Part shown: positions 1 to 56,318 of the stretch, one piece after another | Layout of the letters: each line of letters opens with the position of its first letter | Position numbering within the stretch: position 1 is the first letter of the stretch | Assembly: GCF_014873765.1 (NCBI RefSeq) | Contig: NZ_JADBGG010000027.1 | Coordinates: 1-61,188, forward strand | DNA: 61,188 bases | Origin: Desulfomicrobium macestii | Lineage (GTDB): Bacteria; Desulfobacterota; Desulfovibrionia; Desulfovibrionales; Desulfomicrobiaceae | Direction: 5' to 3' | Made by a program: the position numbers and the translations under genes | The notes under the pieces: generated by a model | Seen by the model: only the letters and a program-made list of their open reading frames with translations | What the model was told of the DNA's origin: nothing | Databases searched by the model: none

Positions 1-69
1 TTTGTCGAGATGAGGAGCGAGACCGGCGAAGAATTCGTCGGAGCGCAGATTACCGTAGAGCGGTGTTAA
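1..69 (+). CDS. C-terminal tail of an unidentified gene (partial)
   Basis: Frame 1 is open from the window edge to a TAA at 67-69 and reads 22 residues with a mixed charged composition (it begins FVEMRSETGEEF and ends VERC). I do not recognise the family and it could be a chance open frame. It sits directly before an IS3 fragment, so the gene could belong to the same patchwork of accessory DNA. Only the sequence left of the window can identify it. Confidence 0.25.
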   Translation, partial: FVEMRSETGEEFVGAQITVERC

Positions 70-75
70 TCATGA

Positions 76-540
76 ATAAATCAACGGGCTGTTAGGACTT
101 TCAACGTCCTGGACGACTTCAGCCGTGAGTGTTTGGCGATCGAAGTCGATACTAACTTGCCCGCAGCAAGGATTTTACGGGTTTTGGATCGCATAGTGGC
201 ATGGCGCGGGTTGCCTGCCAAGTTGAGAATGGACAACGGGCCGGAGCTGATTTCCGTGCTGCTGGCCGACTGGGCTGAAAAAAACGGCGTGGCATTGGAA
301 TTCATCCAGCCAGGCAAGCCCACACAGAATTCGTACATTGAGCGATTCAACAAGACCTACCGGGAAGAGGTCCTGGACTTCTACCTGTTCAAGTCCCTCA
401 CGGAAGTGAAGGAAATTACGGAGAATTGGCTGAGGCAGTACAACGAGGAGCGGCCCCACGAGTCTCTTGGCCATTTGCCCCCGGCAGAGTTCCTCATGAA
501 AAATTCACCCAAGGAAGTCTCTACTTTTGGATGGCACTAA
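76..540 (+). pseudogene. IS3-family transposase (OrfB) C-terminal fragment
   Basis: The frame encodes the C-terminal half of an IS3-type integrase-core transposase. It opens abruptly at RTFNVLDDFSRE, then shows the second catalytic Asp in the DNGPE motif and the catalytic Glu in SYIERFNKTYREE, and ends with the typical NEERPHESLG tail. The N-terminal part, including the first catalytic Asp and the whole of OrfA, is absent: an in-frame stop (73-75) lies just upstream. With about 150 of roughly 280-300 residues left it cannot be an active transposase. It marks the left part of the accessory region as a site of past insertion and deletion. Confidence 0.85.
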
Positions 541-1377: not shown

Positions 1378-2241
1378 TTATCGACATTTGGGTCTTTTCA
1401 AGAACGTTTCAAGAATCAGGGAGCCTTCTTCCTGCAAGTTGTTCAGGTCGGGGGCCATAAAACTTGTGCACCCTTCCAGGCCGACGAACTCGCCTCGGTA
1501 CATCTTCTTTTTCGGATCGTATCCCATTGCAAGCACGTTGCCGCCAGGAAAGGCTGCAAGCCAGAAGAGCCCATCCCTTGGCTGGAGCCATTCGATCATC
1601 ATGCCCGACATCCCAACCCCGGCAACCCGGACGCCTCCATCAATCATGGCGTCATAACGCTCGTGGTGATGGCCGTGAATTTGAATTCTGGCTTTGAGGG
1701 CGCGGGCCACGTCACCCAGAATCCGGTAGCCGAGCTTGTGGGACTCTGGAGCCTCGTGGGCCACAAAGACATCAACCCGGGTCTTGCTGGCAAGGCGGGC
1801 CATCAGCGCAAGATCTTCCGGGAAGATGGATGTGTGATCCTGCGGTGCGAGCTTTTTGTCTTTTCGGATCATTGCCAGACTCTGGCGCGTGTCTTGGGGG
1901 CGGACGTGGGCCAGGTCACTCAAGGTCGTCTGGCGGTCCACACCCAGGACATTGGACCGGAAGGTGCCTCCGAGCCCGGCGATGCGTAGGCCATCAATCT
2001 CCACCACACGGCAATGCAGGTTTCTGTCGGCCATGGCGGCGTGGCGCGTCAGGTATTCGGCATCGTCGCTGTCATGGTTGCCGAATATCCACCACGTCTT
2101 TTCAGCGATCTCCGGGCCGAGGATGGACGCCAAATCGTCAAGCGGTTCCTGGTCGCCCAATAGGATAACCGCCGTGGTTCCGGCCGCAGCTTCCAGCATG
2201 GGTTCAAAGTCACCGTGACAATCTCCGGCGAAGAGTATCAT
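1378..2241 (-). CDS. calcineurin-like metallophosphoesterase (paralogue B)
   Basis: A 287-residue protein with the full metallophosphoesterase motif set: GDCHGD at the N-terminus, GDQE near residue 30, GNHDSD near 54, AHEAPESH in the middle and GHHHER near 190. These supply the Asp/His/Asn ligands of a two-metal site hydrolysing phosphomono- or diesters. The first 200 residues are clearly paralogous to the next gene upstream. About 70 extra C-terminal residues (begin WLQPRDG, end KRPKCR) are specific to this copy. Its ATG overlaps the upstream stop as ATGA, so translation is coupled. The substrate is unknown; a nucleotide or nucleic-acid end is possible given the nucleotidyltransferase in the same operon. 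Confidence 0.85.
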   Translation of the reverse strand: MILFAGDCHGDFEPMLEAAAGTTAVILLGDQEPLDDLASILGPEIAEKTWWIFGNHDSDDAEYLTRHAAMADRNLHCRVVEIDGLRIAGLGGTFRSNVLGVDRQTTLSDLAHVRPQDTRQSLAMIRKDKKLAPQDHTSIFPEDLALMARLASKTRVDVFVAHEAPESHKLGYRILGDVARALKARIQIHGHHHERYDAMIDGGVRVAGVGMSGMMIEWLQPRDGLFWLAAFPGGNVLAMGYDPKKKMYRGEFVGLEGCTSFMAPDLNNLQEEGSLILETFLKRPKCR

Positions 2242-2921
2242 GCCCGCTCTCCCAGACCTTGACCCAGCCAGAAAAAACCTTCGGCTGTTCTTGCCATTCC
2301 GATGCCCTCGACGCGAATCCCGCCTGCGATAGTGGCGCTGTAGCGCTCGTGGTGGTGCCCATGAATGAGCATCTTGACGCCCATGGCGCGGGCGAGGTCG
2401 CCGAGGAGTGGAAAGCCGAGAACATGGCTCTCCGGAGCCTCGTGCGTGGCCAGCACATCGACCTGTCCCTTGAGCGCCAACAATGCCTTTATGTCGTCGG
2501 GAAAAATACTCGTAAAGTCAGCCGGGTATGCCCGACCACCTCGCCGCAGTTTGATCCATGCCTCCCGGGTGTCCTGGGGGCAGTCAAGATCCACCTCGTC
2601 CAGGCGCGTGGTCTGGTCAATTTCGAACTTCTTTGCGCGGAACACCCCGCCTAGGCCCGCAATCCGAACGCCCTCAATCTCGATCATCTGGCAGTGCAGG
2701 TTCCGGTCGGCCATGGATTTGTGGTTTTCAAAGTAGTTCAAATAGTCGCTGTCGTGGTTCCCGAATATCCACCATGCCTTCTGGGCCAAGCCAGGCCCTA
2801 GTTCCACTGTCAGGTCGCTCAGTGGTTCCTGGTCGCCCAGCAAAATGACTGCCGAGGCCTCGCTGGCCTCCTCGATGAGGGGGACGAAATCCCCATGCGC
2901 ATCCCCCGCAAACAGAATCAT
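2238..2921 (-). CDS. calcineurin-like metallophosphoesterase (paralogue A)
   Basis: A 227-residue metallophosphoesterase with GDAHGD, GDQE, GNHDSD, THEAPESH and GHHHER. It is more than half identical by eye to the following gene, so the two arose by tandem duplication. It lacks the long C-terminal extension of its neighbour and ends soon after the last metal-binding motif. It overlaps the nucleotidyltransferase gene upstream (ATGA at 2918-2921) and its paralogue downstream (ATGA at 2238-2241), so all three are probably made from one message in fixed proportion. Two near-identical enzymes could act as a heterodimer, or one may be regulatory (inference). Confidence 0.85.
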   Translation of the reverse strand: MILFAGDAHGDFVPLIEEASEASAVILLGDQEPLSDLTVELGPGLAQKAWWIFGNHDSDYLNYFENHKSMADRNLHCQMIEIEGVRIAGLGGVFRAKKFEIDQTTRLDEVDLDCPQDTREAWIKLRRGGRAYPADFTSIFPDDIKALLALKGQVDVLATHEAPESHVLGFPLLGDLARAMGVKMLIHGHHHERYSATIAGGIRVEGIGMARTAEGFFWLGQGLGERA

Positions 2922-3208
2922 ATCTTCCGAGCCTCCTCGATGACTAAATTTCTGAATTTCTCTGGCAAGTCGCCAGGCGTGACGAGGTCAACAGGAATGC
3001 CCAAAAGCTCTTCCAAGTCGATCTGTAGCCCTCCGAGATCAAACAGCGATGCCCCGGGTAGGAGGTCAACGAGGATGTCGAGGTCGCTGCCCTCGTGGTC
3101 CTCTCCCCGCAAAACAGAGCCAAAGACACGGGCGTTGCAGGCCTTCCGTGCATTGACGGTCTTGAGAACGGCGTCCCGGTGTGTTCGAAGAGCCTCAGAT
3201 GGCTTCAC
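2918..3208 (-). CDS. minimal nucleotidyltransferase (MNT/MntA-like antitoxin family)
   Basis: A 96-residue protein of the Pol-beta-like minimal nucleotidyltransferase family. It carries the exact GSX10DXD active-site pattern (GSVLRGEDHEGSDLDILVD) and the family's C-terminal VDLVTPGDL stretch. In known HEPN/MNT toxin-antitoxin pairs such proteins transfer AMP to the toxin. I chose the GTG at 3208 because it overlaps the upstream stop as GTGA, it starts at the family-typical KPSEAL helix, and residues upstream of it look non-homologous. No HEPN (DUF86-type) toxin is adjacent, which is unusual. The target may be another protein of this operon. Confidence 0.8.
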   Translation of the reverse strand: MKPSEALRTHRDAVLKTVNARKACNARVFGSVLRGEDHEGSDLDILVDLLPGASLFDLGGLQIDLEELLGIPVDLVTPGDLPEKFRNLVIEEARKI

Positions 3209-3474
3209 ATGCCCCCGCAGTCTTTGAAATTTGGCCCCCAGGAATCCCGCTCTGGGTCCTGCACCCATCTCCACCATTCCTGATAGCACAGGGCATCAAA
3301 GGGGTTCTCAAGGTTCTTTTCATAGCCCGCGATCTTGCGCAGATTCTTCAGGACATCCGGATCATCGAGGGCGGCCTGGCGCAGTTCGTCCCAATCTTTC
3401 TGGTCCCCCCTGGTGATACAGGAATCGATGCCCGCCGGGGTCCACGCTTCATGATTCAAGTGCCTGTGCTTCAT
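3205..3474 (-). CDS. small hypothetical protein between DUF6088 and nucleotidyltransferase
   Basis: An 89-residue protein from ATG 3474, beginning MKHRHLNHEAWTPAGID and ending NFKDCGGM. I do not recognise it. It is acidic, Trp-rich (for example EWWRWVQDPE) and appears mostly helical, with no signal peptide. Its start lies inside the last 26 bp of the DUF6088 gene and its stop overlaps the GTG of the nucleotidyltransferase, so it is embedded in the coupled cassette. A small protein fixed directly upstream of an MNT domain may be its partner, either the toxin or an adaptor (inference only). A longer frame upstream exists but has no convincing ribosome site. Confidence 0.6.
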   Translation of the reverse strand: MKHRHLNHEAWTPAGIDSCITRGDQKDWDELRQAALDDPDVLKNLRKIAGYEKNLENPFDALCYQEWWRWVQDPERDSWGPNFKDCGGM

Positions 3475-4246
3475 TTCGTCTTTTTTCCCATCTCCGCTCC
3501 CACGCTCTATAAGAGCGCCCAGGCCCAACCAATTTCCATTTTTTAAGATTAGGCAGGGAATCTTTAAGACCTACAAGGTATTCAGTTTGTGGGTTCAATG
3601 TCGCCTTGAGGACAGATCGAAGCCTTTTGTGCCGTGCATGCTCCAGAATTGCACCTAGGATGGCCCGCACTCGTGGCGGGTAGTGCAGGGCGTACTCAAC
3701 GAGTTTTTCGACTTTCTCTTTCTCAAACCGCTTTATGATCCACAAGAGCCGATTCACCGCGTCATCTGGTGACGCATCAGCGATGTGTTTAATATTTTTT
3801 ATTGCGTCGAGAATCATGAGCAATAAATAATCAGCGTCGTCAGGAATTTCTTTCAATGTTGAGCGCACAAATCTGACATTGAGGTATTTAAGCTTTCTCT
3901 TGTGGTGCCAAGTCGGATGCGCAACTTCAATAACAAAGGGCACCTGTGTTGAAATCCCGAGGGCATTGTGCGCGTCGTGCCCGGCTCTATATACATTCCC
4001 AAGCGACCTGATCAATTCTCCTTCACCGACCCCTAGCGCTCCATACTTACACCAGCGCGGCCTGTAGAACGTCCCTCGATACGCCCGCTCGATCTCTTCA
4101 TGCTCCACCAGCCGCGCCAGCGCTCGGGCGAGCGCCCTACGCCTGGTGACTGCCAGCTCTCCGAAGACGTCGTAGCCGAAGATTTTTCCTTCCGGGATTT
4201 CTGCTACTCGCTGTCTTACGACCTCGATGACGCTTTGCTTTTTCAC
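3449..4246 (-). CDS. DUF6088 / AbiEi-like winged-helix antitoxin-type protein
   Basis: A 265-residue protein with an N-terminal winged-helix region (GKIFGYDVFGELAVTRRRA, ALARLVEHEEIERAYRGTFY) like that of DUF6088/AbiEi proteins, which act as DNA-binding antitoxins and autorepressors in AbiE-type toxin-antitoxin systems. The middle and C-terminal parts (for example PFVIEVAHPTWHHKRKLKYL) follow the family pattern. The start is GTG. The usual partner, an AbiEii/DUF1814 nucleotidyltransferase, is missing; a much smaller MNT-type enzyme lies two genes downstream. It may repress the operon together with the divergent HTH protein. The family assignment is from recall of motifs, not from a search. 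Confidence 0.65.
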   Translation of the reverse strand: MKKQSVIEVVRQRVAEIPEGKIFGYDVFGELAVTRRRALARALARLVEHEEIERAYRGTFYRPRWCKYGALGVGEGELIRSLGNVYRAGHDAHNALGISTQVPFVIEVAHPTWHHKRKLKYLNVRFVRSTLKEIPDDADYLLLMILDAIKNIKHIADASPDDAVNRLLWIIKRFEKEKVEKLVEYALHYPPRVRAILGAILEHARHKRLRSVLKATLNPQTEYLVGLKDSLPNLKKWKLVGPGRSYRAWERRWEKRRNEAQALES

Positions 4247-4318
4247 AATACCGCCCCTGTAACCTGCCTTTCAGCGTTCTCTCGTCGTACCGAAGCCTCA
4301 AAAAATGGCGCGACGGTA

Positions 4319-5041
4319 CTACGAACCCAGCTCAACCCACCAATTCCCCCCAAGGCCTTCCCCGCTCAAGGCTTGCCATGCGCAGCCCTGGTCTTCGCCT
4401 TTGGTATGCAAGTGGAAATGCCCAAAGAACCATTGTCTAGGGCGGGCCTCATCCAAAATCACATCCAGAAGGGCGACAGTGGGGTCTTCCAGTCTGGATT
4501 GGTCAATCTTGTTCTTCGGGAGCTGCCGCAAGAACGCCGAGGGGGCCGTGTGCGAAATGACGATGTCCACGCGCCCGCCGCGGGCCTGTACCTGCGCCCT
4601 TGCGTGCTCCAGATCCGTCTGCGTGGGGACTTCCCCGGCCCACCAGGAATCGCCTTCGGTGCGATCCTCCTTGTCGGTCGACATGGCCCCACCAAAGAAG
4701 ATGGCGGTTCTGCCGTCGGGTAAGTTAATGACTGAGCCCCTTGGCATGTAGAAACAGCCGGGAACCGGGATTTCCAGGGGCTGCCCTGGGGCCGCCTTCA
4801 TGCGCTCTTGCAGGTCGGCATGGTTTTCGTGGTTGCCGTCCGCCCAAAAAATTTTAGTGCCCTGCAGCTTGATGGCGTACTGATCGAAAAAGTGATTCCT
4901 GCCGATCCGCTCGACCAAGTGGCGATGTGGCCACCAGCCGAAGTCGCCGCATTGCAATATGATTTCGGGCCGCTTCTTGTTGATGAATCTGTTGAGCGCT
5001 CGAAAATCTGCGTGTATGTCGCCCATGACGATGATTTTCAT
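4319..5041 (-). CDS. calcineurin-like metallophosphoesterase (third copy)
   Basis: A 240-residue metallophosphoesterase with motifs GDIHADFR, CGDFGWW, DGNHENH, SHTAPS and GHFHLH. It is only distantly related to the tandem pair at the other end of the operon, so it was recruited separately. The aromatic pair in GDFGWW and the Glu after GNH differ from the pair (GDQEPL and GNHDSD), suggesting another substrate. It follows the 111-residue helical gene by 8 bp with no clear Shine-Dalgarno sequence, so translation may depend on coupling. It precedes the DUF6088 gene by 72 bp, the largest gap in the set. Confidence 0.85.
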   Translation of the reverse strand: MKIIVMGDIHADFRALNRFINKKRPEIILQCGDFGWWPHRHLVERIGRNHFFDQYAIKLQGTKIFWADGNHENHADLQERMKAAPGQPLEIPVPGCFYMPRGSVINLPDGRTAIFFGGAMSTDKEDRTEGDSWWAGEVPTQTDLEHARAQVQARGGRVDIVISHTAPSAFLRQLPKNKIDQSRLEDPTVALLDVILDEARPRQWFFGHFHLHTKGEDQGCAWQALSGEGLGGNWWVELGS

Positions 5042-5049
5042 ATTACGAT

Positions 5050-5385
5050 TTATTTTTTTAGTAATTTCAAATATCCGAAATAGTGGGCATGATATGCATC
5101 GTGCAGTTTATTCATATCTTCTTGTATTTTTATATGATAATTCCCTTCTATCATATTTTTAATATTATCAATGCAGTACTCAATAGCAGTATTCAATATT
5201 TCAATTTCTTGATGCAATTTATCTAGTTCAAGCCTTGGATTTATATAAAGACTTAACAACGAATTGAGTCTCCAATAAACTCCGCCGAGTTCGGTTCCAC
5301 CGGGATTATCCCTAATTTTTGGGTACAAAATACGCAACGACTGCTCAATCATATCTGCAGCTTCGCTTGTTTTCATAGCCTCCAT
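5050..5385 (-). CDS. helical hypothetical protein, first gene of the leftward operon
   Basis: A 111-residue, AT-rich gene whose product is predicted almost fully helical (long stretches such as LDKLHQEIEILNTAIEYC). I do not recognise it. GGAGG lies 8 bp before the ATG at 5385. One R-x6-H string (residues 51-58) exists, but without other HEPN hallmarks I do not call it a HEPN RNase. As the leading gene of the operon, directly facing the HTH regulator and the palindromic sites, it could be the toxin or a sensor. Base composition is lower in GC than in the genes that follow. Confidence 0.6.
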   Translation of the reverse strand: MEAMKTSEAADMIEQSLRILYPKIRDNPGGTELGGVYWRLNSLLSLYINPRLELDKLHQEIEILNTAIEYCIDNIKNMIEGNYHIKIQEDMNKLHDAYHAHYFGYLKLLKK

Positions 5386-5442
5386 AACAATACCTCCAAT
5401 AACAATAACCCATCAAAAACACTGCCCACTCCGTCCAATTAC

Positions 5443-5463
5443 ACGTTAACGTAATATATTACG
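5443..5463. promoter_or_regulatory. two overlapping perfect palindromes, probable operator
   Basis: ACGTTAACGT (5443-5452) and CGTAATATATTACG (5450-5463) are both perfect palindromes and share three bases. They lie between the divergent starts at 5385 and 5525. This is where an HTH dimer (the 75-residue regulator) or the DUF6088 protein would be expected to bind to control both directions. No clear sigma-70 pair could be assigned with confidence. Confidence 0.55.
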
Positions 5464-5524
5464 ATGGGCTAGTCAATAAATTTCCGTTATTCTTACACCA
5501 AACATTCAGGATGGTGGTAAGATT

Positions 5525-5752
5525 ATGTCGATTTACGATGTTCGAGCCGAAACAAAAGGGATCACAAGCAATGTTAAAAAAATTATGGAAGACAAAGCAG
5601 TGTCAATTGTGACGCTTTCAAATGAGACAAAGTTGTCAACAAAAATTATTGAGAGGGCGCGTACAGATAAAATTAAACTGTGCAAACTTGAAACACTTGC
5701 CATAATCGCAAAAGGACTAAAGGTAAAAGTAAAGGATCTATTTAGCGAATAA
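5525..5752 (+). CDS. small Cro/CI-type (XRE) HTH regulator
   Basis: A 75-residue stand-alone helix-turn-helix protein. The region VSIVTLSNETKLSTKIIERA fits the XRE fold and LCKLETLAIIAKGLKVKVKDLF is the typical helix 4-5 end of Cro/CI-like repressors. A purine-rich GGTGGTAAG precedes the ATG. It is AT-rich and transcribed away from the operon that begins at 5385, with the palindromes in between. It most likely represses its own promoter and the operon, as in many mobile toxin-antitoxin or phage-defence loci. Confidence 0.75.
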   Translation: MSIYDVRAETKGITSNVKKIMEDKAVSIVTLSNETKLSTKIIERARTDKIKLCKLETLAIIAKGLKVKVKDLFSE

Positions 5753-5871: not shown

Positions 5872-7353
5872 TCAATCAGCGCTTTGAGTCTGCAATCCAG
5901 AGTTTCTTGCGTCTCGGATGATATCAGTGAGTCTCGTGCTAACCATGTCGACTATTTGTTCTGCAGCCAGTCTATTAGTGTTAATTTGCCGTAAATCTCT
6001 TTTTAATATCTCCAATTCTAATTTAAGATTCTCTGCTGCATGGAGACGACCAACTGCTCTGTCAATATTTCCCCATGCACCATCCATTTCTCTAGCTATA
6101 TCAATATAGTGCCATAAAGAATCGACATTGCCATGCCCAGTTTTTTTTCTAACTCGTTCAAGAATTGTTCTATAATCCTGCTCATTCACCATGTTACCGT
6201 GATGATTTTCCCACTGTTTAAGATGTGACAGCACTTCGTAAGTTATAAATCGATGTCTAAACATCGAAAAGCATGCTTGTTTATCTTTGTATCCAGCTAA
6301 CCGTGAAAGTTTTTCAAAGTCTTTTTCTAGACCAGTTTTTCCGATATTAGCGCCACATTTTCCAGGCTCAGTGCTTAAAAACATAGAGTTTTGCTCTTTA
6401 TATTCAGAAAATTTTCCTTTACAAACTTCTATCCACCTTTTTCTTGCAGATAAATACCTCAAAACTACTCGACCATCTTTGAGGGTTATTGGAAAAGAGC
6501 GGTAGGGGGCAATTCGTTTGCGTCTTTTTAAAGTCGGTAAAGTTAATATTTGTTTTGCAACAGCCTGTTGGTTCTCTTTGACAGGCATGCGTATTAACTC
6601 TTCAGGGCGCAAGCCCGTGCGTTTCAGCATCCAAATCATGAAAATACGTCGCTCATATAAATAGTTTAGTAATTCTTGATGAAATACAGTATCATTTTTA
6701 AAGCGGCGAAGAGCCGGCTCCGGATAAGCTGAGGGGTCTCCAAGGCGATCAATTACATCTTCAATATCTTCAATAACCCGTAATCCTATCGGTATTTTTG
6801 GCTCTGTACTGTGGGCTTCAGGAGCACATCTATGGCTCCAATAATAACGGCCATTGTGAGGGTTCTTTTTTTTCTCACAAACAACGGAAGGAGAATCTTT
6901 TCGTTCACCTAAAAGAGGTTTCGATCCATGATGGAGATTATTTGAATACCAATTTAAGAAATCTAAACATCTTTGTAGAATTCGTCTAACCGTATTGTCG
7001 TTACGAACTCGCTGATGCTTGTCCGTCACTTGAGATTTTGAGCGAAGTTGGTCGACAAAAGCATATACGTCGCCATCATCTATTTGATTGAAACCCTTTC
7101 CTGCCCGAGCGCAGTAACGAATTAATTCTGATAATTCGCTAGCGTAAGTTACAGCTGAGTTGCCTGTCCAAAGATAGCTATTGTCGATCAAATACATGTT
7201 AATTGGCAAGCAAGGCCTTCCATTTGGCCAGCAAACATATGCAATACTATTTATTTTTTGATAATAAATAAATTTTTTTTCTTTAGTTTTAGAAATACAA
7301 TCAGATATAAATACGTCATTTAATCTAGTGTAAAGTTTATAATTTCTATTCAT
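5872..7353 (-). CDS. tyrosine recombinase (third of the recombinase operon)
   Basis: A 493-residue site-specific recombinase. The C-terminal half has the arginine box (TGLRPEELIRMP), a box II at SMFRHRFITYEVL, then KKTGHGNVDSLWHYID with the second His and the Tyr nucleophile. In box II the usual H-x-x-R appears as S-M-F-R, a deviation from the consensus. The N-terminal 180 residues form the core-binding region. Its ATG overlaps the preceding small gene by 8 bp. The protein would cut and join DNA when the element excises or integrates. Confidence 0.8.
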   Translation of the reverse strand: MNRNYKLYTRLNDVFISDCISKTKEKKFIYYQKINSIAYVCWPNGRPCLPINMYLIDNSYLWTGNSAVTYASELSELIRYCARAGKGFNQIDDGDVYAFVDQLRSKSQVTDKHQRVRNDNTVRRILQRCLDFLNWYSNNLHHGSKPLLGERKDSPSVVCEKKKNPHNGRYYWSHRCAPEAHSTEPKIPIGLRVIEDIEDVIDRLGDPSAYPEPALRRFKNDTVFHQELLNYLYERRIFMIWMLKRTGLRPEELIRMPVKENQQAVAKQILTLPTLKRRKRIAPYRSFPITLKDGRVVLRYLSARKRWIEVCKGKFSEYKEQNSMFLSTEPGKCGANIGKTGLEKDFEKLSRLAGYKDKQACFSMFRHRFITYEVLSHLKQWENHHGNMVNEQDYRTILERVRKKTGHGNVDSLWHYIDIAREMDGAWGNIDRAVGRLHAAENLKLELEILKRDLRQINTNRLAAEQIVDMVSTRLTDIIRDARNSGLQTQSAD

Positions 7354-7933
7354 GTATTTTTAATTTTATAACTTTGCTTTGTGACATGTTTGGCGTAAAT
7401 AAATCGCCAAAGAGTTCGTCATGGTTTGTAATGAGGTTTTTAAGTCGATGCTTTGTCGAATCATCAATGGTATGGCTTTTTGAAAGCCCGAAGACTTCTT
7501 TTAAAATCCATAAATACGCTTTCGTCTGCGCCATCATTGTTCTTTGCAATGCTGAAAGTTCTTGCTGAGCACGGTTTAGCTTTTCAGCCATAATTAATTC
7601 GCGAGATTTTTTGTTTCTTGCTAGTGCCTCTTTTTTGGCTAAGTCCTTCACTTCATTCCTTAGCCAATCTATATATTTCCATCCGGTCTCGCCATTAGGG
7701 GTATAGTGATCTGAAAAAAGAATATCTGAATATTTAAAAAGTGTATTTCGAGACCCGAGTCTGCATATGCCTATTTCTGGTAAATCAAGTGACGCAAGAG
7801 CAACGGAGGAATTACATGCTGTAGTCAGTGCTTTTGGAGCTGTTTTGATAGATTTTATAGCTTGTTTAAGAGCCTCGTGCCTCGCAAAAACACTGGATCT
7901 GCATTTTTCTTCTGTGAGCCTTACTTTTTTCAT
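7346..7933 (-). CDS. TnpC-like small coiled-coil protein of the recombinase operon
   Basis: A 195-residue protein whose central region (from KYIDWLRNEVKDLAKKEALA through LNRAQQELSALQRTMMAQT) is predicted as a long coiled coil. Size, position among tyrosine recombinases and coiled-coil character match accessory proteins such as TnpC of Tn554, which aids orientation and efficiency of insertion. Sequence-level homology was not verifiable. It is coupled on both sides (ATGA overlap at 7930-7933; 8-bp overlap downstream). It may tether the recombinases or bind the element ends. Confidence 0.6.
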   Translation of the reverse strand: MKKVRLTEEKCRSSVFARHEALKQAIKSIKTAPKALTTACNSSVALASLDLPEIGICRLGSRNTLFKYSDILFSDHYTPNGETGWKYIDWLRNEVKDLAKKEALARNKKSRELIMAEKLNRAQQELSALQRTMMAQTKAYLWILKEVFGLSKSHTIDDSTKHRLKNLITNHDELFGDLFTPNMSQSKVIKLKIHE

Positions 7934-10149
7934 AACTTATTTCCTATATAAGTTGAACGAAATGCCACACATATTTTTTGTCGTCCTTGGTTATCAGTAA
8001 TCGAGTATGGCTCCAGAACGAACTCCCCGCTTTCACGTAGCGTTTGTACGTATGTCTCCCATGATCGTTCTGAAATAAGCTCTAGCTGATCCACAGAAAA
8101 ATGTTTGAGAACTTTTTCGTAAAGTTCATTAAGACCAATTTCTTCTACACCTTGAGCGCGTGATTTGTCATAATGCCTTAGTCTGTCTGCTGCATATTCT
8201 CCTTCAAGCTTTGTAAATTCGACTCCAGGAAATTCACGTTCTATGTATGCGTACAAATGTTGAATATCTGTGTGTCCAGCAATTTCACGTGCTGCATCTA
8301 AAACGTCAAATCGACCTGACCAAAAAAGTAATAACAAAAACCACTTTCGCATTTCATGTATGCGAATGTACCACCTGCGTCCATAATTGTCTGGCTGAAG
8401 ATTGACGTGATCGCAAAAAGCATCAAGACAATAATCAAGTTCTTGAGTGCGGGGGATAGTGCAATGTCCAAAAGTGTCAAACCTCGGTAGGTAAAATAGT
8501 CTACTTTTTTTGTATTCATCAAGTTCATTGAATATTTTTACAAGGCCATCTCCAAGTCTTTGCATTTGAGATATGGCTTTCGCTGTGATCGTCGGTATAG
8601 GTTTTCCTCCTGTGCCGGCCCGATATTCTCGAACAGTACGTTTTGCTAGATCGGATTCGATCCAGTAGGGGCCTGTGCCAAGCAGGCAGTTGCGAGGGAG
8701 TTGTGCTATTTCTGTTTCACGGGATGGTTTAGTCATTCCTATAACGACTATGACCGCACCTGCCCAAATTTTTAGTGCGTGATGGATTGTCGGTACTGTT
8801 GAAAGAAAACCAGATGGTTTTTTCTTACCTCCCCACAAAAGATTAGTGAAAGTAATGCCTGACTTTTTAAGATTATGCGACATCTGTATTTGCTGAATAA
8901 TTTCATATACACTATCTAAGTAAGATGAAGATTTATCTTCTGCACTTTCCTTTATTTTTTTTACTTCCGTCAGTTTTTCTGCAAAAGTAAGATAATAATC
9001 TACTAACTCATCTCCATAGCGATGGATCCACCGAAGAGATTCGTTTAAATATCTTAATCCCGTATCAATAGGTATAAATGGTGTTGGAGTAAATGTCTTT
9101 CCATGATTGAGGCCAATTTTTCTAGCTTCAACAAGGTTAAGTGTTGAAGGATCAGGAATCACATCAGGAAGATGCCTGTAGAGAGTAAACAATGATTTTA
9201 AAGTACAGTATAGATGGTTTGTCGAACTATGTGATGCTGGTTGATTTAAAGCCATATCAATCGTAAGTGTTTTATGGCTAGGGTATTCGGTTGTTTGTCC
9301 CCCTGCAATTAATAATTTTTGAGGATGGTGGAGGTCAGGTTCAAATTGTCTCAAAACTGCATTAAGACTTGAAGATGCTCCTGCAAGTTTTTTGGGAGGC
9401 AAGGAAATGAGTCCGGCTATAAAAACGCGAGACAGCATCTTCTTTCCGGTTGCGTTTGATACAGTATAGGCCTTTTGCGACTGTAGCCATCTCACCATCT
9501 CAATAAGCATATTTGCTGGAAGTTTTCCGGGATTTTCAAGAATTTCAGGAGGGCATTTAGATCCAAAGACTCCTTGATGGATTGAATCGATGATTCGCTC
9601 AGCCATAAGAAGAGCCTTTGTCCAACCATCTTGGCCGAGTGCTGTAAAAAGCTGCCTCATTCCATCTTGGTCAAGAAGAGCAAAGGCGTATTTATTTCCC
9701 AAATAGCGGTCGTTGCGTAGTGATATCCATGAACAAAGTAGTATAAGGTTACAGCAGAATACTTTCCATGTAGATACGGCTGGGGGAGTACCATCGCCCA
9801 TTCCTTCTCGATATAAAAATGCAGCACGTCGACAAGATTCAAGCATTACGCGATTATCGGTATCAGTCAGATGGCTTCCGTTTGGCAAAATTTGATCCCA
9901 ATTAATATCAACGGTTCCAGTCCAAGTCATATTTTTAACAAGTCTAGTTTTTTTGCCACTATAAGTATTCCATACTGGTGAATTCCAGTCATTTAAAAGC
10001 CAAGCAGCTTGATAATTACCCTCGAAAGGTTTCATCATTTTAGCGCAGCTTGCTATTCGTTTAAAAATCTCATCGCGATCGGCTTTGTTAAGAGAAAGGT
10101 TATTCTCCGGCATTATATTGTCTAGCGATGAAGATAAATTTTTATCCAT
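7930..10149 (-). CDS. large tyrosine recombinase (TnpB-like)
   Basis: A 739-residue protein with a tyrosine-recombinase catalytic domain between residues about 480 and 670: the Arg box in KPSRETEIAQLP, the H-x-x-R box in RIHEMRKWF, and AGHTDIQHLYAYIERE with the second His and candidate Tyr. The set is complete, so this may be the main catalytic subunit. The long N-terminal region is unrecognised. I chose ATG 10149 because GGAG lies 6-7 bp upstream; a TTG four codons earlier overlaps the preceding gene. Recombinases of this size resemble Tn554 TnpB and other multi-recombinase integration modules. Confidence 0.75.
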   Translation of the reverse strand: MDKNLSSSLDNIMPENNLSLNKADRDEIFKRIASCAKMMKPFEGNYQAAWLLNDWNSPVWNTYSGKKTRLVKNMTWTGTVDINWDQILPNGSHLTDTDNRVMLESCRRAAFLYREGMGDGTPPAVSTWKVFCCNLILLCSWISLRNDRYLGNKYAFALLDQDGMRQLFTALGQDGWTKALLMAERIIDSIHQGVFGSKCPPEILENPGKLPANMLIEMVRWLQSQKAYTVSNATGKKMLSRVFIAGLISLPPKKLAGASSSLNAVLRQFEPDLHHPQKLLIAGGQTTEYPSHKTLTIDMALNQPASHSSTNHLYCTLKSLFTLYRHLPDVIPDPSTLNLVEARKIGLNHGKTFTPTPFIPIDTGLRYLNESLRWIHRYGDELVDYYLTFAEKLTEVKKIKESAEDKSSSYLDSVYEIIQQIQMSHNLKKSGITFTNLLWGGKKKPSGFLSTVPTIHHALKIWAGAVIVVIGMTKPSRETEIAQLPRNCLLGTGPYWIESDLAKRTVREYRAGTGGKPIPTITAKAISQMQRLGDGLVKIFNELDEYKKSRLFYLPRFDTFGHCTIPRTQELDYCLDAFCDHVNLQPDNYGRRWYIRIHEMRKWFLLLLFWSGRFDVLDAAREIAGHTDIQHLYAYIEREFPGVEFTKLEGEYAADRLRHYDKSRAQGVEEIGLNELYEKVLKHFSVDQLELISERSWETYVQTLRESGEFVLEPYSITDNQGRQKICVAFRSTYIGNKL

Positions 10150-10151
10150 AG

Positions 10152-12290
10152 TCAGCTCCAAGAGGAAGATATTCGCAACTTTCTAAATTTTTTAACTAAA
10201 ACAGGGAGTATTTTAATAGCTGATTCGTGAGATCTCCGCAGTTTAGAAATTTCGAGGCTTTCTTTTAACGCTTCACCGATTATCTCGCTTTCTGCCGCGT
10301 GTCTTAATAATTTTGACAAATCAACAAAATGTTTTGGTGAGAGACCTGTATTTTTTTCTATAGTACACATAGATTTAAAAGAAATTTTTTCACGTGTAAT
10401 TTGATCGAATGCATAAAGGAGAGCGAGAGCGTTGCAAGAAGTATTTAGAGTAAGTATAGAGTTAGAATTAATCTGAGAATTGTTATATAGAAACGTATTG
10501 AAACGTTGGTGGAGACTCTCACCTATAGGAGAGTGTCCACAAGGGTTTTCTTCTAATATTTGAGCTAAAAATGACATAAGCTCGTCGTAGTCATGCATAT
10601 CAGTTACATCAACAAGATAGTCCTCACTTGAGGCTGCGAGTGCAATCAGAGTATTCTGAAATCTTCGAATAATTCGTTCATTCCAGAGTCGAATCAGTGG
10701 TTTTGGTATATAATGTTCCATCACTACATTGTAGCTGTTTCCGAGTTTTCTGGAGACTTTATGGATCGAACCAGAAGAAAACCACTCCAAAACTCCTTGT
10801 GTCGAGCGAATTTTTGAAAATGAAAGGGTCCCTTTTTTTAATCCGCTTGCAGAAAGCTCTGGGTATAGCTGTGCCAATGTTTGTTTGTTGTCAGCAATTA
10901 GAAGAGATGATCTAATAATAGGATGGCCTAATATATTCCAAGCGCCGCCACTATATCCGATAAAAAGGTATTTCCAATGTTTTGAGTTTCCTCTGCGTAG
11001 AAGTTGGCGTACAATTTCAGTGCTTCTTATAACGTGTTTAATTATTCTTTGGGCTCGGCGCGATAATACTGCGTATTTTCTGGATTGAGTCCGGGGCTTG
11101 TCTACAGAAAAAATTAACTGAGATTTGTTGTCAGTGAACAACAAGAACGACTTGCCTCTTGAATTCAGAAGACGAGCTTCTGCCAATGACTCAGGATTTA
11201 AATTGGGATGTTCTTGAATTAAGATAGCCAAGGCAACGGCCATGTCGAGGGGTGTTAAAATGCCTAAGAAACGGGCAAACAAAGTTCTTCTATCAGTCTT
11301 TAATATCTGATTAGCACGTAACGAAGTTGTCTTAATGATATCGGCGATTGGTGTGTGTTTTTCTGTATGTAGAAAGCGATCCATGAAAGCTTTATTTGTT
11401 TGAAGTCGTTTTGTAAAAAAACAACTTTCATCTTTATCTTTTTTGAGAATATATTCAAGAATCTTCAAAGCCCAAGCGCTACTGTCTGGAACACGAGGGT
11501 CAGTTACTCTTCTATAAGTTGTAGAGCGGATACTATAGTCGCAATCAACTTTGCGTCTCCAATTCACCATGCGAACTCTGTCAAAGAATTCGTCCTCTGG
11601 TACTCTTCGTAGCAATTTTCGCCCTTGGCGATAATCTTTTGTCAAGCGAAGCCAATAATCATCAGTCACTTGTTTCAAAAGTTTATTTCTAGAATGAAGC
11701 GTGTCTTCGATTTCTCTAAGATATTCTAGGTCGTTTCGCCAAAAAATTGGGCCAGCAATAGTTTTATTGATTGGATGGCGCTCAGAATCAGTTTCTTTTA
11801 CAGGTTCTTCTCCCATAAGTTCGGAATTGCGAGGAGATGTTGTTGGGATGGTTTCCTGTCGAAATTTGTTTGTTGGAACGACCAGCCCAATTGGCAAAAG
11901 CCCTTCGTTGATCAAATCTTTCAGCCAAGGAACAACAAAATTGTCCCATTGTGAAACCCGTGTCACGATTGAAGCTTTAATTGTGTCACTACTTAAATAC
12001 CAAGCGTACCAATCTAAAATTAACACTTGCCATTCGTTAAAGTTCTGTGGAAAAAAATTTATTGAACGTATTTGTAGATATTTTCCTAGACGCGATAATG
12101 TTGCTTGTAAGTATGCACGTTGAGTTGCGTATTTTTTTGGTAATAAAAATTTTTTTGTAGGTAAGATAATTTTATTTACATCGTTACGAAATAAAATCAT
12201 TAAATTTGAAAGGTTTAGTTGATGGGGCTTGCGACGTTTCGGATCATCAAGTAGAGCCGTGAGAGTAGTTTCTGTGATATCAAAAATCAA
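10152..12290 (-). CDS. recombinase-like protein with decayed catalytic boxes (first of the operon)
   Basis: A 712-residue protein. The C-terminal portion has the layout of a tyrosine recombinase (FSKIRSTQGVLEWFSSGSIH then KLGNSYNVVMEHYI), but the H-x-x-R His is absent and the expected LGH reads LGN, while a Tyr is retained. It may be a structural, DNA-binding partner of the next two recombinases. The start is TTG at 12290, supported by AAGGAG 8 bp upstream. It is the first gene of the operon and reads away from the truncated hsdM. AT-rich composition matches the rest of the element. Confidence 0.65.
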   Translation of the reverse strand: MIFDITETTLTALLDDPKRRKPHQLNLSNLMILFRNDVNKIILPTKKFLLPKKYATQRAYLQATLSRLGKYLQIRSINFFPQNFNEWQVLILDWYAWYLSSDTIKASIVTRVSQWDNFVVPWLKDLINEGLLPIGLVVPTNKFRQETIPTTSPRNSELMGEEPVKETDSERHPINKTIAGPIFWRNDLEYLREIEDTLHSRNKLLKQVTDDYWLRLTKDYRQGRKLLRRVPEDEFFDRVRMVNWRRKVDCDYSIRSTTYRRVTDPRVPDSSAWALKILEYILKKDKDESCFFTKRLQTNKAFMDRFLHTEKHTPIADIIKTTSLRANQILKTDRRTLFARFLGILTPLDMAVALAILIQEHPNLNPESLAEARLLNSRGKSFLLFTDNKSQLIFSVDKPRTQSRKYAVLSRRAQRIIKHVIRSTEIVRQLLRRGNSKHWKYLFIGYSGGAWNILGHPIIRSSLLIADNKQTLAQLYPELSASGLKKGTLSFSKIRSTQGVLEWFSSGSIHKVSRKLGNSYNVVMEHYIPKPLIRLWNERIIRRFQNTLIALAASSEDYLVDVTDMHDYDELMSFLAQILEENPCGHSPIGESLHQRFNTFLYNNSQINSNSILTLNTSCNALALLYAFDQITREKISFKSMCTIEKNTGLSPKHFVDLSKLLRHAAESEIIGEALKESLEISKLRRSHESAIKILPVLVKKFRKLRISSSWS

Positions 12291-12401: not shown

Positions 12402-12890
12402 ATGATGTTATGTTGCTATGAACAAGCCAGTAGCTCGATAAAAACCGGCATTCCGGTCTGCTTGTGGTTCCTGACAAAAAACAAAGGAACCGACACCAAA
12501 CGCGGGTTCCGCGACCGCCGCAAACACACCCTGTTCATAGACGCCCGCAAACTCGGTACCCTCATCGACCGCGTCCACCGCGAACTGACCGACGTCGATA
12601 TGGAGAAAATCGCCGGCACCTATCACCGCTGGCGAGGAGACAACGGCGCAACCGAATACGAAGACATCGCCGGTTTCTGTAAATCCGCCACAACCGCCGA
12701 TATTGCCGCGCATGGTTTTGTGTTGACGCCGGGGCGTTATGTTGGGGCTGAGGTAGTTGAAGATGATGGGGAGCCTTTTGAGGAGAAGATGACGCGGTTG
12801 GTGGCGGAATTGAAGGGACAGTTCGAGGAATCTGCGCGGTTGGAGTTGGCTATTAAGGCGAATTTGAAGGGGTTGGGCTATGGCGGGTGA
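12402..12890 (+). pseudogene. hsdM: HsdM (type I methyltransferase) C-terminal remnant
   Basis: From about 12444 the frame matches the C-terminal quarter of type I modification subunits: [28 protein letters not shown], then [18 protein letters not shown] and a final coiled-coil tail. The N-terminal helical domain, the SAM-binding motif and the catalytic NPPY box are all missing. About 150 of roughly 500 residues remain, and the first 14 codons of the frame come from the AT-rich element. It overlaps hsdS by 11 bp as in an intact operon. Insertion or rearrangement by the adjacent element is the simplest explanation; the 5' half may lie left of the window. Confidence 0.85.
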
Positions 12891-14192: not shown

Positions 14193-16457
14193 ATGATTGA
14201 ATCCATCACCATTGCGAACGTTGCGACCTATGCAGGAGCGCCTGAACAACTCGCCGGGTTGTCCCGATTCAATTTCTTATATGGCTCGAACGGGACTGGG
14301 AAAACGACTGTCAGTAGAGTTATCGCAAAAGAGACGGATTTCCCTTCCTGCCAAGTAAAATGGAAAGGCGGAACGAAGCTTCAACCAATGGTCTATAACC
14401 ACGATTTCGTGGAACGAAACTTCCATCAGCTCCCCGAACTCAAAGGTGTTTTCACATTGGGCGAGAAGCAGAAGGACACGCTGACGAAAATTGAAACGGT
14501 CAAGGCAGAACAAGGCGCACTCACTGCAAAGATTGAAAACCTTACCCAATGTTTGACGAGCGCAGACGGCACGGCTGGCAAGAAGGTAGAGTTGGCAGCT
14601 CTCGAATCTGCTTTAAGAGAGAAGTGTTGGACGCTGAAGCAGAAGCTTGATGGACAGCATGTACAAGGTGCTTTCAAAGGCTACATGGGAAGCAAGGATA
14701 GTTTTAGATCGAAAATTCTTCAGGAACACGCCTCTAATGCGGCCACGCTCCTGCCGCAGACCGATTTGGAAAAAAAGGCGGCGAGCATCTTTGGTCCAAC
14801 ACCAATAACGGAGGCGTTTGTTGCCGCCATTGACACGACGAAGCTTCTTTCATGTGAAGCAGACCCGATTCTAAAGAAGCGTATTATTGGAAAGGATGAT
14901 GTCGATATCGCTGCGATGATCAAGAAGCTCGGAAACAGCGATTGGGTTCGCGCTGGACGGGCGTTCTATGATGTGAATGAGGAAGTCTGTCCGTTCTGCC
15001 AACAAAAGACGACCGCAGCATTGAGGCGGAGCTTGGACGAATACTTTGACGAGGCATTTGTAAATGACAGCAAGGTAATCGATGATCTTGCCACTGACTA
15101 CGCCACAGAGGCGAGGCGGTTACAGCAGCAGCTCGCCACAATCATCGCGTCTCCGTCAAAGTTCCTCGACGTTGAGAAGCTGAAGGCAGAGAAAGAACTC
15201 CTCGACACTAAAATTACGCTCAACAACCAACGTATTGCTGGAAAGAGGAAGGAAGCGAGTCAGGTAGTTGAATTGGAATCGCTGACTAATGTGACGACGG
15301 CAATCAAGGCTGTAATCGACGACGCCAACATTCAAGTTGCAGCCCATAACAAGGTGGTCGCAAACCTCGTGACCGAACGCACAATCCTGACATCACAAGT
15401 TTGGAGGTTTGCGCTAGAGGAGCTGAAGGCAGATCTCGACGCATTCAAGACGGCCAAAGAGGCTTTGGATAAAGCCATCACTGCAATGAAGGACCAGATT
15501 GAAAATGCGACTGAAGAACGAAGGATTAAGGCCGCTGAAATTCGTGAGTTGGAAAAGCAGACAACGAGCGTTCAGCCCACTGTCGACGGCATCAATGAGT
15601 TACTCATTTCATTTGGCTTCCAAGGATTCAATCTCACCAGAACCGTGAGCGGGACATCTTACAAATTAGTACGCCCGGACGGTTCAGATGCAAAGGCGAC
15701 GTTGAGCGAAGGAGAAAAGACCTTCGTCACCTTCCTTTACTTCTACCACCTACTTAAAGGCAGCGAGTCAGAGAGCGGGATGACGAACGACCGAATCGTT
15801 GTTTTCGACGACCCTGTCTCCAGTCTCGATAGCGACATCCTCTTCATTGTTAGTAGTCTCATCAAAAATGTCTTTGATGAAGTCCGGGAAGGAACAGGGT
15901 ACATTAAGCAAGTTTTCGTGCTCACGCATAACGTATATTTTCATAAGGAAGTGACCTTCAATCCAGACCGTCGGAAGGTGGCGATGGGCGAGGAGACGTT
16001 TTGGGTGGTTCGTAAATCGGATCTAGTTTCTAAAATCGAGAAGCATAATACCAACCCCATCAAAACTTCTTATGAGTTGCTATGGTCCGAAGTTCGCAGG
16101 ACAGACCGCTCGAACCTGACGATTCAAAATACTTTAAGAAGGATTCTTGAGAACTACTTCAAGATTCTCGGCGGCGCCGATCCCGACAAGATTTGCGGAA
16201 TGTTTGAGGGTAAAGAGAAGCTCATCTGCAAATCGCTCTTTTCGTGGGTCAATGACGGTTCGCATTTTGTCCTCGATGATCTCTATGTTTCAATGGATAG
16301 CTCAATGGTAGAAATTTACCTCAAAGTTTTTCGTGAGATATTCAAGAAATCGGACCACCTTGCTCACTACAAAATGATGATGGGTGACGCATTCGTGGAT
16401 GATGCTCCAGTTTTCGAGGCTACAGCTCCAGTAGCATTTCCAATTGCACAGCCATGA
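14193..16457 (+). CDS. RloC-like zinc-hook ATPase, probable anticodon nuclease
   Basis: A 754-residue AAA_13-type ATPase. Walker A is GSNGTGKTT near residue 31. Long coiled coils flank CPFCQ (Cys266 and Cys269), the Rad50-like zinc hook. The ABC signature is TLSEGEKTF, Walker B is RIVVFDDPVSSLDSD near 534-548, and the H-loop is LTHN near 577. After the ATPase, R649-x3-E653 (LRRILENYF) followed by H691 (NDGSHF) matches the Arg/Glu/His layout of PrrC/RloC anticodon nucleases. Such proteins sit in type I loci and cleave a tRNA anticodon loop when DNA damage or anti-restriction is sensed. The nuclease role is inferred; other AAA_13 proteins are possible. Confidence 0.7.
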   Translation: MIESITIANVATYAGAPEQLAGLSRFNFLYGSNGTGKTTVSRVIAKETDFPSCQVKWKGGTKLQPMVYNHDFVERNFHQLPELKGVFTLGEKQKDTLTKIETVKAEQGALTAKIENLTQCLTSADGTAGKKVELAALESALREKCWTLKQKLDGQHVQGAFKGYMGSKDSFRSKILQEHASNAATLLPQTDLEKKAASIFGPTPITEAFVAAIDTTKLLSCEADPILKKRIIGKDDVDIAAMIKKLGNSDWVRAGRAFYDVNEEVCPFCQQKTTAALRRSLDEYFDEAFVNDSKVIDDLATDYATEARRLQQQLATIIASPSKFLDVEKLKAEKELLDTKITLNNQRIAGKRKEASQVVELESLTNVTTAIKAVIDDANIQVAAHNKVVANLVTERTILTSQVWRFALEELKADLDAFKTAKEALDKAITAMKDQIENATEERRIKAAEIRELEKQTTSVQPTVDGINELLISFGFQGFNLTRTVSGTSYKLVRPDGSDAKATLSEGEKTFVTFLYFYHLLKGSESESGMTNDRIVVFDDPVSSLDSDILFIVSSLIKNVFDEVREGTGYIKQVFVLTHNVYFHKEVTFNPDRRKVAMGEETFWVVRKSDLVSKIEKHNTNPIKTSYELLWSEVRRTDRSNLTIQNTLRRILENYFKILGGADPDKICGMFEGKEKLICKSLFSWVNDGSHFVLDDLYVSMDSSMVEIYLKVFREIFKKSDHLAHYKMMMGDAFVDDAPVFEATAPVAFPIAQP

Positions 16458-21735: not shown

Positions 21736-21894
21736 CACTGCAAAAAGCCACCAAAGAACCTGAGTGTCATTCCCGCGAACGTGTGCCCAGCATGGGTAGG
21801 CGGGCTATGTCGGCAATAGCGCGAAATCCATTTTTTTCAGATAGTTAAAAGGAATGGATCCCCTTCTTCAAGGGGATGACGGCTTTTTGCAGTG
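21736..21894. repeat. MITE-like element, copy 1 (long form)
   Basis: A 159-bp element bounded by a perfect 14-bp terminal inverted repeat (CACTGCAAAAAGCC at 21736 and its complement ending at 21894). Inside are a TGTCATTCCCGCGAACGTG block and, near the right end, TCCCCTTCTTCAAGGGGAT, which can form a small hairpin. It has no coding capacity. It shares its body with copies near 43.6 and 55.8 kb. Confidence 0.85.
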
Positions 21895-21952
21895 ACGTGA
21901 TTAAGGATTTGAGTCACGCCACGTCCAATCGGCAGTGATTTTTGGCATCCCA

Positions 21953-43590: not shown

Positions 43591-43707
43591 CTGCAAAAAG
43601 TCGTGGATGAACCTGAACGTCATTCCCGCGAAGGCGGGAATCCATTCTTTTCAGATATTTAGAAAGGCGTAGATCCCCTTCTTCAAGGGGATGACGACTT
43701 TTTGCAG
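43591..43707. repeat. MITE-like element, copy 2 (short form)
   Basis: A 117-bp form with a perfect 14-bp terminal inverted repeat: CTGCAAAAAGTCGT at 43591-43604 and its complement at 43694-43707. The middle lacks about 40 bp present in the long copies and holds GTCATTCCCGCGAAGGCGGG with a small hairpin. It ends about 20 bp before GGAGG of the DUF533 gene, so it may affect that gene's expression. Confidence 0.85.
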
Positions 43708-43739
43708 TGACGTCATTTCATCTTATGTGGAGGTTTTCA

Positions 43740-55732: not shown

Positions 55733-55800
55733 GGTGTGTCACTCCCGGATTTTTCTCGATGATTGCAGGTTACGAAGCCCCTTTTGTGTTTTTTTGACGA

Positions 55801-55960
55801 CATTGCAAAAAGTCGCAAAAGAACTCGAGTGTCATTCCCGCGAACGTGTGCCCAGCATGGGTAGGCGGGCCATGCCGGGCAATAGCGCGAAATCCATTCT
55901 TTTCAGATAGTTAAAAAGGCATGGATCCCTTCTTCAAGGGGATGACGACTTTTTGCAGTG
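55801..55960. repeat. MITE-like element, copy 3 (long form)
   Basis: A 160-bp long form, with CATTGCAAAAAGTCG at the left end and CGACTTTTTGCAGTG at the right end (one mismatch in 15 as inverted repeats). The inner body, including the GCGAACGTGTGCCCAGCAT stretch and the ATCCCTTCTTCAAGGGGAT hairpin region, is almost identical to copy 1. It separates the two response-regulator paralogues and has no gene. Confidence 0.85.
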
Positions 55961-56318
55961 ACCTTTTTTTTATCGAATGTTGAAGATTGTGGACTTATAA
56001 AATTGTTCATGAATATTATTTTTTTAACATACTATGCGAAATGCTTCGCTATTTGTTTCTTTGTTCTTTATGTTTTATAGAGGATAATCGTGAATTATTT
56101 TAAAGTGACAGTTTACGGAGTAACTATGACATGCATCTTGAAACACTACGCAATGTCAATGTGTTACGTAAGAACTCGCTGAGAGTTTACTTGAAGGCGG
56201 AGAGCTTCAGCAACGGAAAGTGCTGTGTATTTTGGATAAATTTGACTAAAACGTGGTAAGTATAAAATTAAGATTCCACGTCCGTATTTTTCTCAAAGGG
56301 AAGGTTGTGGCGGTTCGG
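55961..56318. other. AT-rich intergenic region between the regulator paralogues
   Basis: About 360 bp without a gene, of low GC around 55990-56110. Nothing clear as a promoter or riboswitch could be assigned by eye, although it is upstream of 55073-55732. Confidence 0.45.

Follow-up and report, generated by a model that had tools for sequence, protein, structure and literature searches.

The operon A-B-C-D of Desulfomicrobium macestii, four overlapping genes on the minus strand at positions 12290-5872 of a 61,188-nucleotide contig stretch (hereafter, the window), very probably constitutes the recombination module of a site-specific mobile element of the SE/Tn554-like kind, with ends, protein roles and a copy-out route as proposed below. 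The operon is only part of the element, which extends rightwards to position 12443 and leftwards past the window edge; next to its right end lies the C-terminal half of a split hsdM gene that belongs to a restriction-modification (R-M) locus, and a second hsdM gene of the same genome is split as well. Judged against small reference sets and, for RIT elements and Tn554, against published descriptions only, A-B-C-D appears to represent an unnamed family of four-component tyrosine-recombinase elements. The features of the locus are listed in Table 1.

Table 1. Features of the element and of the adjoining hsdM gene in the window
Feature	Position	Strand	Description	Basis or supporting observation
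Cargo open reading frames (ORFs)	2238..5041	minus	include an AbiEi/DUF6088 protein at 3449-4246	ORF and library search
Small cargo ORF	5525..5752	plus	next to gene D	similar copies on contigs C9 and C41
Gene D	5872..7353	minus	493-aa tyrosine recombinase with Ser363 where box II His is expected; distant homologue of SE IntA	ORF, Pfam, hhalign
Gene C	7346..7933	minus	195 aa, helical; follows B as Srap follows IntB in SE	ORF, model with pLDDT 90
Gene B	7930..10161	minus	large tyrosine recombinase, 743 aa from TTG, or 739 counted from an ATG four codons later	ORF, alignment, hhalign
Gene A	10152..12290	minus	712 aa, TTG start; predicted tyrosine-recombinase fold, box I Arg not evident; putative Tfp/GinC-like role	ORF and AlphaFold model
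Right (operon-side) element end	12418..12443	minus	terminal sequence also on contig C65	93/93 element bases identical
Six-bp footprint	12444..12449	.	not native to the window hsdM	same six bases as next to the left end on contig C63
hsdM, C-terminal half	12450..12890	plus	its N-terminal half is on contig C38 (L014 5661-6806, minus)	

The four genes and their relatives

Four coupled genes had been described at this place from the sequence, and the ORFs lie exactly there, with overlaps of 10 bp (A/B), 4 bp (B/C) and 8 bp (C/D); the operon starts 153 bp inside the right element end. Relatives were found by a pattern scan with a six-sequence B alignment, in which each of 84,980 species was represented by one genome. 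The scan yielded 76 loci, and in 67 of these the profiles of all four proteins detect the order A-B-C-D on one strand; of the remaining nine, C alone goes undetected in two, and the other seven loci are partial, with five located at a contig end. Because the same order recurs so often, the grouping of the four genes goes beyond chance. The hosts include Photobacterium, Pseudomonas, Cellvibrio, Acinetobacter and Marinobacter as well as Betaproteobacteria such as Rhodoferax and Methylophilus. In the tree of 78 B proteins, built by a quick method that carries a long-branch warning and leaving out L047, whose B is in two pieces, the window protein groups with two Photobacterium proteins, one from Cellvibrio and one from a metagenome-assembled genome (support 100; nearest relative at 45% identity). 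Since only two of the 348 genomes of the host's class have matches, namely its own and one of its genus (two pieces, 26-29% identity), the element was probably acquired from outside. Among viral contigs, there were 19 pattern matches, none of which is a relative of the A-B-C-D family. The plasmid records seen annotate the core genes as 'hypothetical protein' and 'integrase'. The genome of L047 (G359, Burkholderia sp. OK233) additionally encodes five tyrosine-recombinase trios (open frames of 428, 412 and 351 aa) with identical scores and a sixth, partial one, which resemble multi-copy RIT elements.

The family alignments, which include the window and plasmid relatives and underlie the counts and the tree, were subject to length floors of 600 (A), 620 (B), 150 (C) and 430 (D) residues. 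Gene B, the 739-residue protein previously recognised as a complete tyrosine recombinase, has the entire catalytic set (R481, K507, H602, R605, H630 and Y639); the first four of these residues are invariant in the 78 aligned proteins, H630 is present in 76, and Y639 in 77, with one gap. The corresponding positions of gene D are R249, K276, S363, R366, H407 and Y416, including the serine at the box II histidine that had already been pointed out. Among 75 aligned D proteins, this position is occupied by His in 58, Ser in 16 and Arg in one, and the recurrence of Ser identifies it as natural variation. Gene D has a weak match to Pfam PF00589 (E 1.2e-5; 25.6 bits against a cut-off of 27.1), and searches of Pfam, NCBIfam and PHROGs returned nothing for A and B.

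The decayed boxes attributed to the 712-residue protein are those of gene A. No box I arginine is evident in its family alignment (n=70, read by eye), and the second box II histidine is Asn in the window protein (46 His, 23 Asn and one gap in the family); K398 and R495 are nevertheless kept in all 70 sequences, and Y527 in 69, with one gap. Foldseek alone gave weak matches, the best to XerA (E 7.8e-3). The AlphaFold model (mean pLDDT 83) aligns with XerH, XerA, the Tn1549 integrase and Cre at Z 11.7-13.1, with XerH (5jk0_D) at the top (Z 13.1, root-mean-square deviation 3.0 Å, 172 residues aligned), a range of scores in which values below about 13 may arise by chance in helical models. Because every top structural match is a tyrosine recombinase or a type IB topoisomerase, A is predicted to adopt the tyrosine-recombinase fold. 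The gene C model is helical, with one helix 67 residues long; a fold search of the PDB gave no match with E < 1, and the only match in the Pfam, NCBIfam and PHROGs libraries was a weak one to DUF3919 (E 0.001). B and D would be the catalytic tyrosine recombinases, A probably binds the element ends without cutting, and C may be a small helical accessory protein like TnpC or Srap; the roles of A and C are suggested by fold, position and analogy.

Split hsdM genes, element ends and the six-base footprint

To the right of the element, the C-terminal half of hsdM is followed by hsdS, an ATPase-like gene and hsdR. Two N-terminal halves of hsdM genes, on contigs C38 and C63, stop at the same position of the Pfam N6_Mtase model and both run into an identical sequence (95/95 bp), the left element end. 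At the end of contig C65, the right element end known from the window is fused to another hsdM C-terminal half. The halves pair by subfamily: among relatives whose insertion motif was read, the C half follows from residue 1 at the same locus in 16/17 for the C38/window type and in 27/28 for the C63/C65 type. Although the two genes belong to different subfamilies, the cuts fall at homologous codons, FYS-TQ-IP and FYN-TG-IT. The shared ends and this pairing of the halves show that one element has cut into two distinct hsdM genes at the same codons. Its ends form imperfect inverted repeats, in which TTTTNTCGASCTAC is followed by another block near TGTTCA. Gene A is preceded by similar ends in L034, L035 and L041, and looser versions are found in L036, L038-L040 and L043. 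The block at 5451-5731, repeated on C9 and C41, was considered as an element end and rejected because it holds the small cargo gene with its upstream region; likewise, hsdM was rejected as the target at L044 and L057, where this gene is uninterrupted through the motif.

The hexamers at the four junctions reveal a transfer of bases. Beside the left end these are ACGCAG (C38) and ACCGGC (C63), and beside the right end ACCGGC (window) and ACTGGT (C65). Among 29 relatives of the C38/window hsdM, 26 were readable at this site, and 23 of these encode TQ, with single cases of TP, VT and TG; the 11 nearest relatives all encode TQ, as C38 does. Because the relatives mostly encode TQ, the native six bases stayed at the left, far end, and the ACCGGC of the window came from the C63 site, which gives the route of movement from C63/C65 to C38/window. 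Both C63/C65 hexamers encode TG, as do the 28 readable of 29 relatives of that gene, so that the preceding donor probably was another hsdM site of the TG type.

We propose that the element recognises its imperfect inverted terminal repeats together with a conserved coding motif of hsdM, and that strands are exchanged around a 6-bp spacer, such that the target's own six bases would stay at the end far from A and the donor's six would arrive at the A-side end. The right end lies at window position 12443 and the left end on contig C38, past the QatABCD anti-phage system. The window copy would have come from the other hsdM gene of the same genome, probably by copy-out/copy-in, a route that fits the persistence of the C63/C65 junctions and presumably involves a circular intermediate; such an element would be mobile and may be active at present.

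A second, independent case comes from a Providencia IncT plasmid (L011), in which a relative of about 8.2 kb is inserted in umuD. The IncT plasmid Rts1 has an uninterrupted umuD, so that the search for empty sites suggested in the preliminary description as a way to find the ends succeeded for this relative, in addition to the two split hsdM genes found here. The D-side junction of the Providencia insertion keeps the native six bases, whereas the A-side six also occur in Colwellia, Neiella and Thalassolituus, where a nearly identical element is inserted in targets that look umuD-like by eye. The transfer has the same polarity as in the window. The copies of the umuD element share 99.9% identity across 7.7-8.2 kb, and the Acinetobacter copy 100% across 6.5 kb. 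The shared mobile segment on the Providencia plasmid also contains a class A beta-lactamase gene (L011 4676-5539), between the A-side end and gene A.

Other relatives interrupt different genes. In Cellvibrio, radC is split into halves 36.6 kb apart and has non-native bases at the A side. The genes interrupted on that side in other relatives include those for an Mg-chelatase (comM-like; L036), an aminotransferase (L038) and yaeQ (L039 and L040), each of which is matched without its first part. In L034/L035, a target that looked pirin-like by eye found no support in Pfam and is not counted. Another yaeQ reading frame, also read by eye, is present beside the cut yaeQ in L039 (14398 onward, just behind gene D) and L040 (around 20908, farther off); it could rescue the cut gene and recalls the target-gene-like cargo of Tn552-II.

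Several observations weigh against this reconstruction or narrow it. A single B copy is assembled in the genome (as far as tested, a single operon), and the existence of another copy between C63 and C65 is deduced from the ends there. The window element has its two ends on different contigs; window 1-95 is repeated at two other contig starts, and the element middle could not be assembled. Neither a circular form nor an empty hsdM was seen, or could have been. One relative of the C38/window hsdM, L134, has TG at the insertion site. That both hsdM junction pairs persist would also fit cut-and-paste following replication of the chromosome. For umuD, letters common to flank and spacer leave the boundaries of the spacer uncertain by about two bases, and the Acinetobacter copy, whose A side is off the contig, differs by one base in the D-side six; in Cellvibrio, the D-side bases of radC are only partly native. 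Finally, no homologue of gene C could be recognised among the SE, GInt-like and GMT-type loci that served for comparison (Srap, GInt-like protein 4 and GmtX).

Beside the left end, contig C38 encodes QatA, QatB, QatC and QatD (PADLOC E 0, 2.9e-127, 2.8e-197 and 7.3e-117, respectively). The element thus seems to have carried a defence system into the R-M locus and, because the hsdM gene is split, to have disabled that locus. The cargo ORFs at the left of the operon include putative metallophosphoesterase-like ones. A module of the metallophosphoesterase-like, AbiEi/DUF6088 and small ORFs is found at three sites of the genome, namely window 2238-5752, inside the element, C41 (L017) and C9 (L018), which are about 70-86% alike in aligned blocks; the 281-bp block over the small ORF region (5451-5731) is 78-80% identical at the C9 and C41 loci. 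An IS3 transposase fragment (133-540) lies at the contig break. Outside the element, a 754-aa protein encoded between hsdS and hsdR (14193-16457) matches the PADLOC candidate system PDC-S06 (E 1.4e-289). Dispersed repeat blocks of about 70-215 bp, 82-93% alike, occur on two contigs (window 21736-21949, 43639-43717 and 55796-55964; L014 7184-7869).

Relationship to known elements

The preliminary description had been reminded of Tn554, RIT and GMT elements without a clear match to any. The absence of a clear match stands, whereas the kinds that turned out to be closest, SE (intA-tfp-intB-srap) and GInt (ginABCD), had not been named. No already named element with the same four genes or gene order was found in the open-access PMC literature, supplementary lists not being covered. 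The locus L112 of Photobacterium alginatilyticum, found with NCBIfam NF040692, is taken here to be a GMT, and NF040692 to be GmtX; as we understand it, GMTs share with the present operon the combination of recombinase genes and a small associated protein on mobile islands with defence cargo. L112 encodes proteins of 497, 1439 (this one with integrase repeats) and 221 aa, and the four family profiles match none of them in this single GMT-type locus. In turn, NF040692 does not match the window proteins at E up to 1, and its one match site in the Photobacterium genome of L035 is not gene C.

Three SEs served as references, all read in SE order: L115 on pAQU1, L117, and L118, which is SE-6945 on pSEA1. 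The GInt references, L116 and part of L119, were judged GInt-like by order and size only; in L119 (Cupriavidus necator pHG1), three consecutive integrases stand beside the GInt-like three-gene piece. Against the three SEs, hhalign aligned D with IntA at a probability of 97.6% (E 2.6e-12) and B with IntB at 82.8% (E 9.4e-6), but blastp of the window proteins gave nothing under E 0.05, so that this homology is remote only. B also aligned with GInt-like protein 3 (38%, E 3.3e-4), and D with GInt-like protein 1 at 20%. No match was obtained for A with Tfp (0.7%) or C with Srap (0.3%) in these three SEs, published SE lists reaching further; A and C reached at most 1.1% against L116 and part of L119, and at most 2.0% among all reference SE, GInt-like and GMT-type proteins. 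In tblastn searches of plasmid records, the SE IntB query matched 107 records and the Providencia B query 19, with the overlap compared over 40 of the 107.

SEs are arranged intA-tfp-intB-srap, leave a footprint of 6 bp and keep the native six bases next to intA, where the operon starts (PMC10214605, PMC9345347). Common features are two RHRY tyrosine recombinases, one of them large, a decayed recombinase-fold protein and a small helical protein, along with imperfect inverted terminal repeats, targeted insertion and variable cargo (PMC9345347, PMC10214605). In both, a 6-bp fingerprint from one end of the donor reappears at the opposite end of the new copy, as seen here for window/C63 and Providencia/Rts1. 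In terms of roles, however, A-B-C-D corresponds to tfp-intB-srap-intA, both in the window and in the 67 ordered loci; A and C cannot be aligned with Tfp and Srap of the three SEs; the donor's six bases are at the operon-start end, as opposed to the far end in SEs; and the A-B-C-D family is present outside Gammaproteobacteria. Because the native bases are on the D, that is IntA-like, side here and on the intA side in SEs, the polarity of the footprint may follow the IntA-type recombinase or its end rather than the operon.

GInts likewise have a four-gene operon for three recombinase-type proteins, one without the first arginine, and a small protein, with a 6-nt staggered exchange, high target specificity, and R-M and other adaptive cargo (PMC5385486); in E. 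coli, they carry defence systems (PMC10121019). In contrast to A-B-C-D, where the small gene is third, it comes last in ginA-ginB-ginC-ginD; similarity to the one GInt-like locus is weak or none; and GInts are said, in the published account, not to inactivate their targets completely, whereas hsdM is cut mid-gene (PMC5385486). Tn554 and Tn552-II resemble the present family in bringing the donor attachment site (att) to one end of the new insertion, in a small TnpC-like helper, in site specificity and in target-gene-like cargo (PMC12486829). By its description, however, Tn554 has three genes, tnpABC, and no decayed recombinase, so that A has no counterpart there (PMC10214605, PMC12486829); Tn552-II has a 7-bp spacer, as against 6 bp here, and its native att is on the left, taken from the printed gene order as the tnp side, as against the far side here (PMC12486829). 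RIT elements similarly consist of several adjacent tyrosine recombinases but are described as having three of 315-410 aa, all with the catalytic tyrosine, and no small protein (PMC10214605). Related target genes are known from systems with other recombinase families and gene sets: serine-integrase-triplet integrative and conjugative elements (ICEs) disrupt hsdM in Streptococcus and have been suggested to excise when the gene is useful (PMC4701971), and rulB, the partner gene of the umuC type, serves as a hotspot for three-recombinase integron-like elements (PMC4542609).

Alternative explanations and significance

The balance of this evidence tilts slightly towards a third, unnamed family apart from SE and GInt, distributed in Gamma- and Betaproteobacteria and at least one other class, that homes to motifs in hsdM, umuD, radC, comM-like, aminotransferase and yaeQ genes, copies the donor's six bases to the operon-start end and, in this genome, would have moved a Qat system from one R-M locus into another. 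Our confidence in a separate family is lowered because the published SE lists may already contain part of it without its being recognised. Using synteny of tfp and srap over 11 PSI-BLAST rounds, Idola et al. assembled a set of SEs and reported a large Pseudomonas clade, with most element ends in Pseudomonas and Acinetobacter impossible to find; because A-B-C would satisfy this synteny, the published Pseudomonas 'SE clade' may include part of the A-B-C-D family. The competing view, that these are divergent SEs or GInts of the same group whose sequences drifted and whose gene order was shuffled, is a serious though less favoured possibility. It draws on the matches of D to IntA and of B to IntB and one GInt-like integrase, on the common footprint logic and set of parts (two recombinases, a decayed recombinase and a small protein), and on the synteny just mentioned, whereas the 67 complete loci follow neither the intA-tfp-intB-srap nor the ginA-B-C-D order, the footprint lies at the other end when operon direction is taken as the reference, and the hhalign probability of A and C against Tfp/Srap and GInt-like proteins 2 and 4 is at most 0.7%.

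With respect to mechanism, conservative excision and integration in the manner of Tn916 and ICEs, with heteroduplex coupling sequences instead of copying out, appears rather unlikely. Although the tyrosine recombinases of ICEs act so (PMC10214605) and the junctions alone are compatible with this route, both hsdM junction pairs persist, and in the two cases where the native sequence is known, the window and Providencia umuD, the donor's six bases are on the operon side and the native six at the far end. That the window element is dead and only its relatives mobile is improbable: the IS3 fragment at the contig break and the missing box II histidine of gene D would fit a relic, but the four genes are open, the other catalytic residues are intact and Ser at the box II position is common. 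Moreover, the ends of the two copies are identical over 95 and 93 bp, from which the last move looks recent. Finally, the insertion could be maintained as a reversible R-M switch (phase variation) because it silences hsdM, which would recall the Streptococcus ICEs (PMC4701971) and accord with two R-M genes of one cell being cut at the same motif; given the unrelated targets of the relatives (umuD, radC, Mg-chelatase, aminotransferase and yaeQ), and with nothing showing regulated excision, we consider this highly improbable. A site-specific element that probably copies itself out, as proposed above, remains the preferred reading.

How SEs and Tn554 move is unresolved with respect to the need for three or four proteins and the choice of the exchanged strand. 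A permuted operon with the same parts and with the footprint at the other operon end offers a natural way to find out if polarity is governed by the operon, by the ends or by the IntA-type recombinase. The A-B-C-D family adds a carrier of defence systems and other cargo, one version of which occurs, with hardly any change, both on a patient-derived Providencia plasmid and in Colwellia, Neiella and Thalassolituus. If A-B-C-D is indeed a separate third family, such an element would have replaced, in the Desulfomicrobium macestii genome, one kind of defence gene by another.

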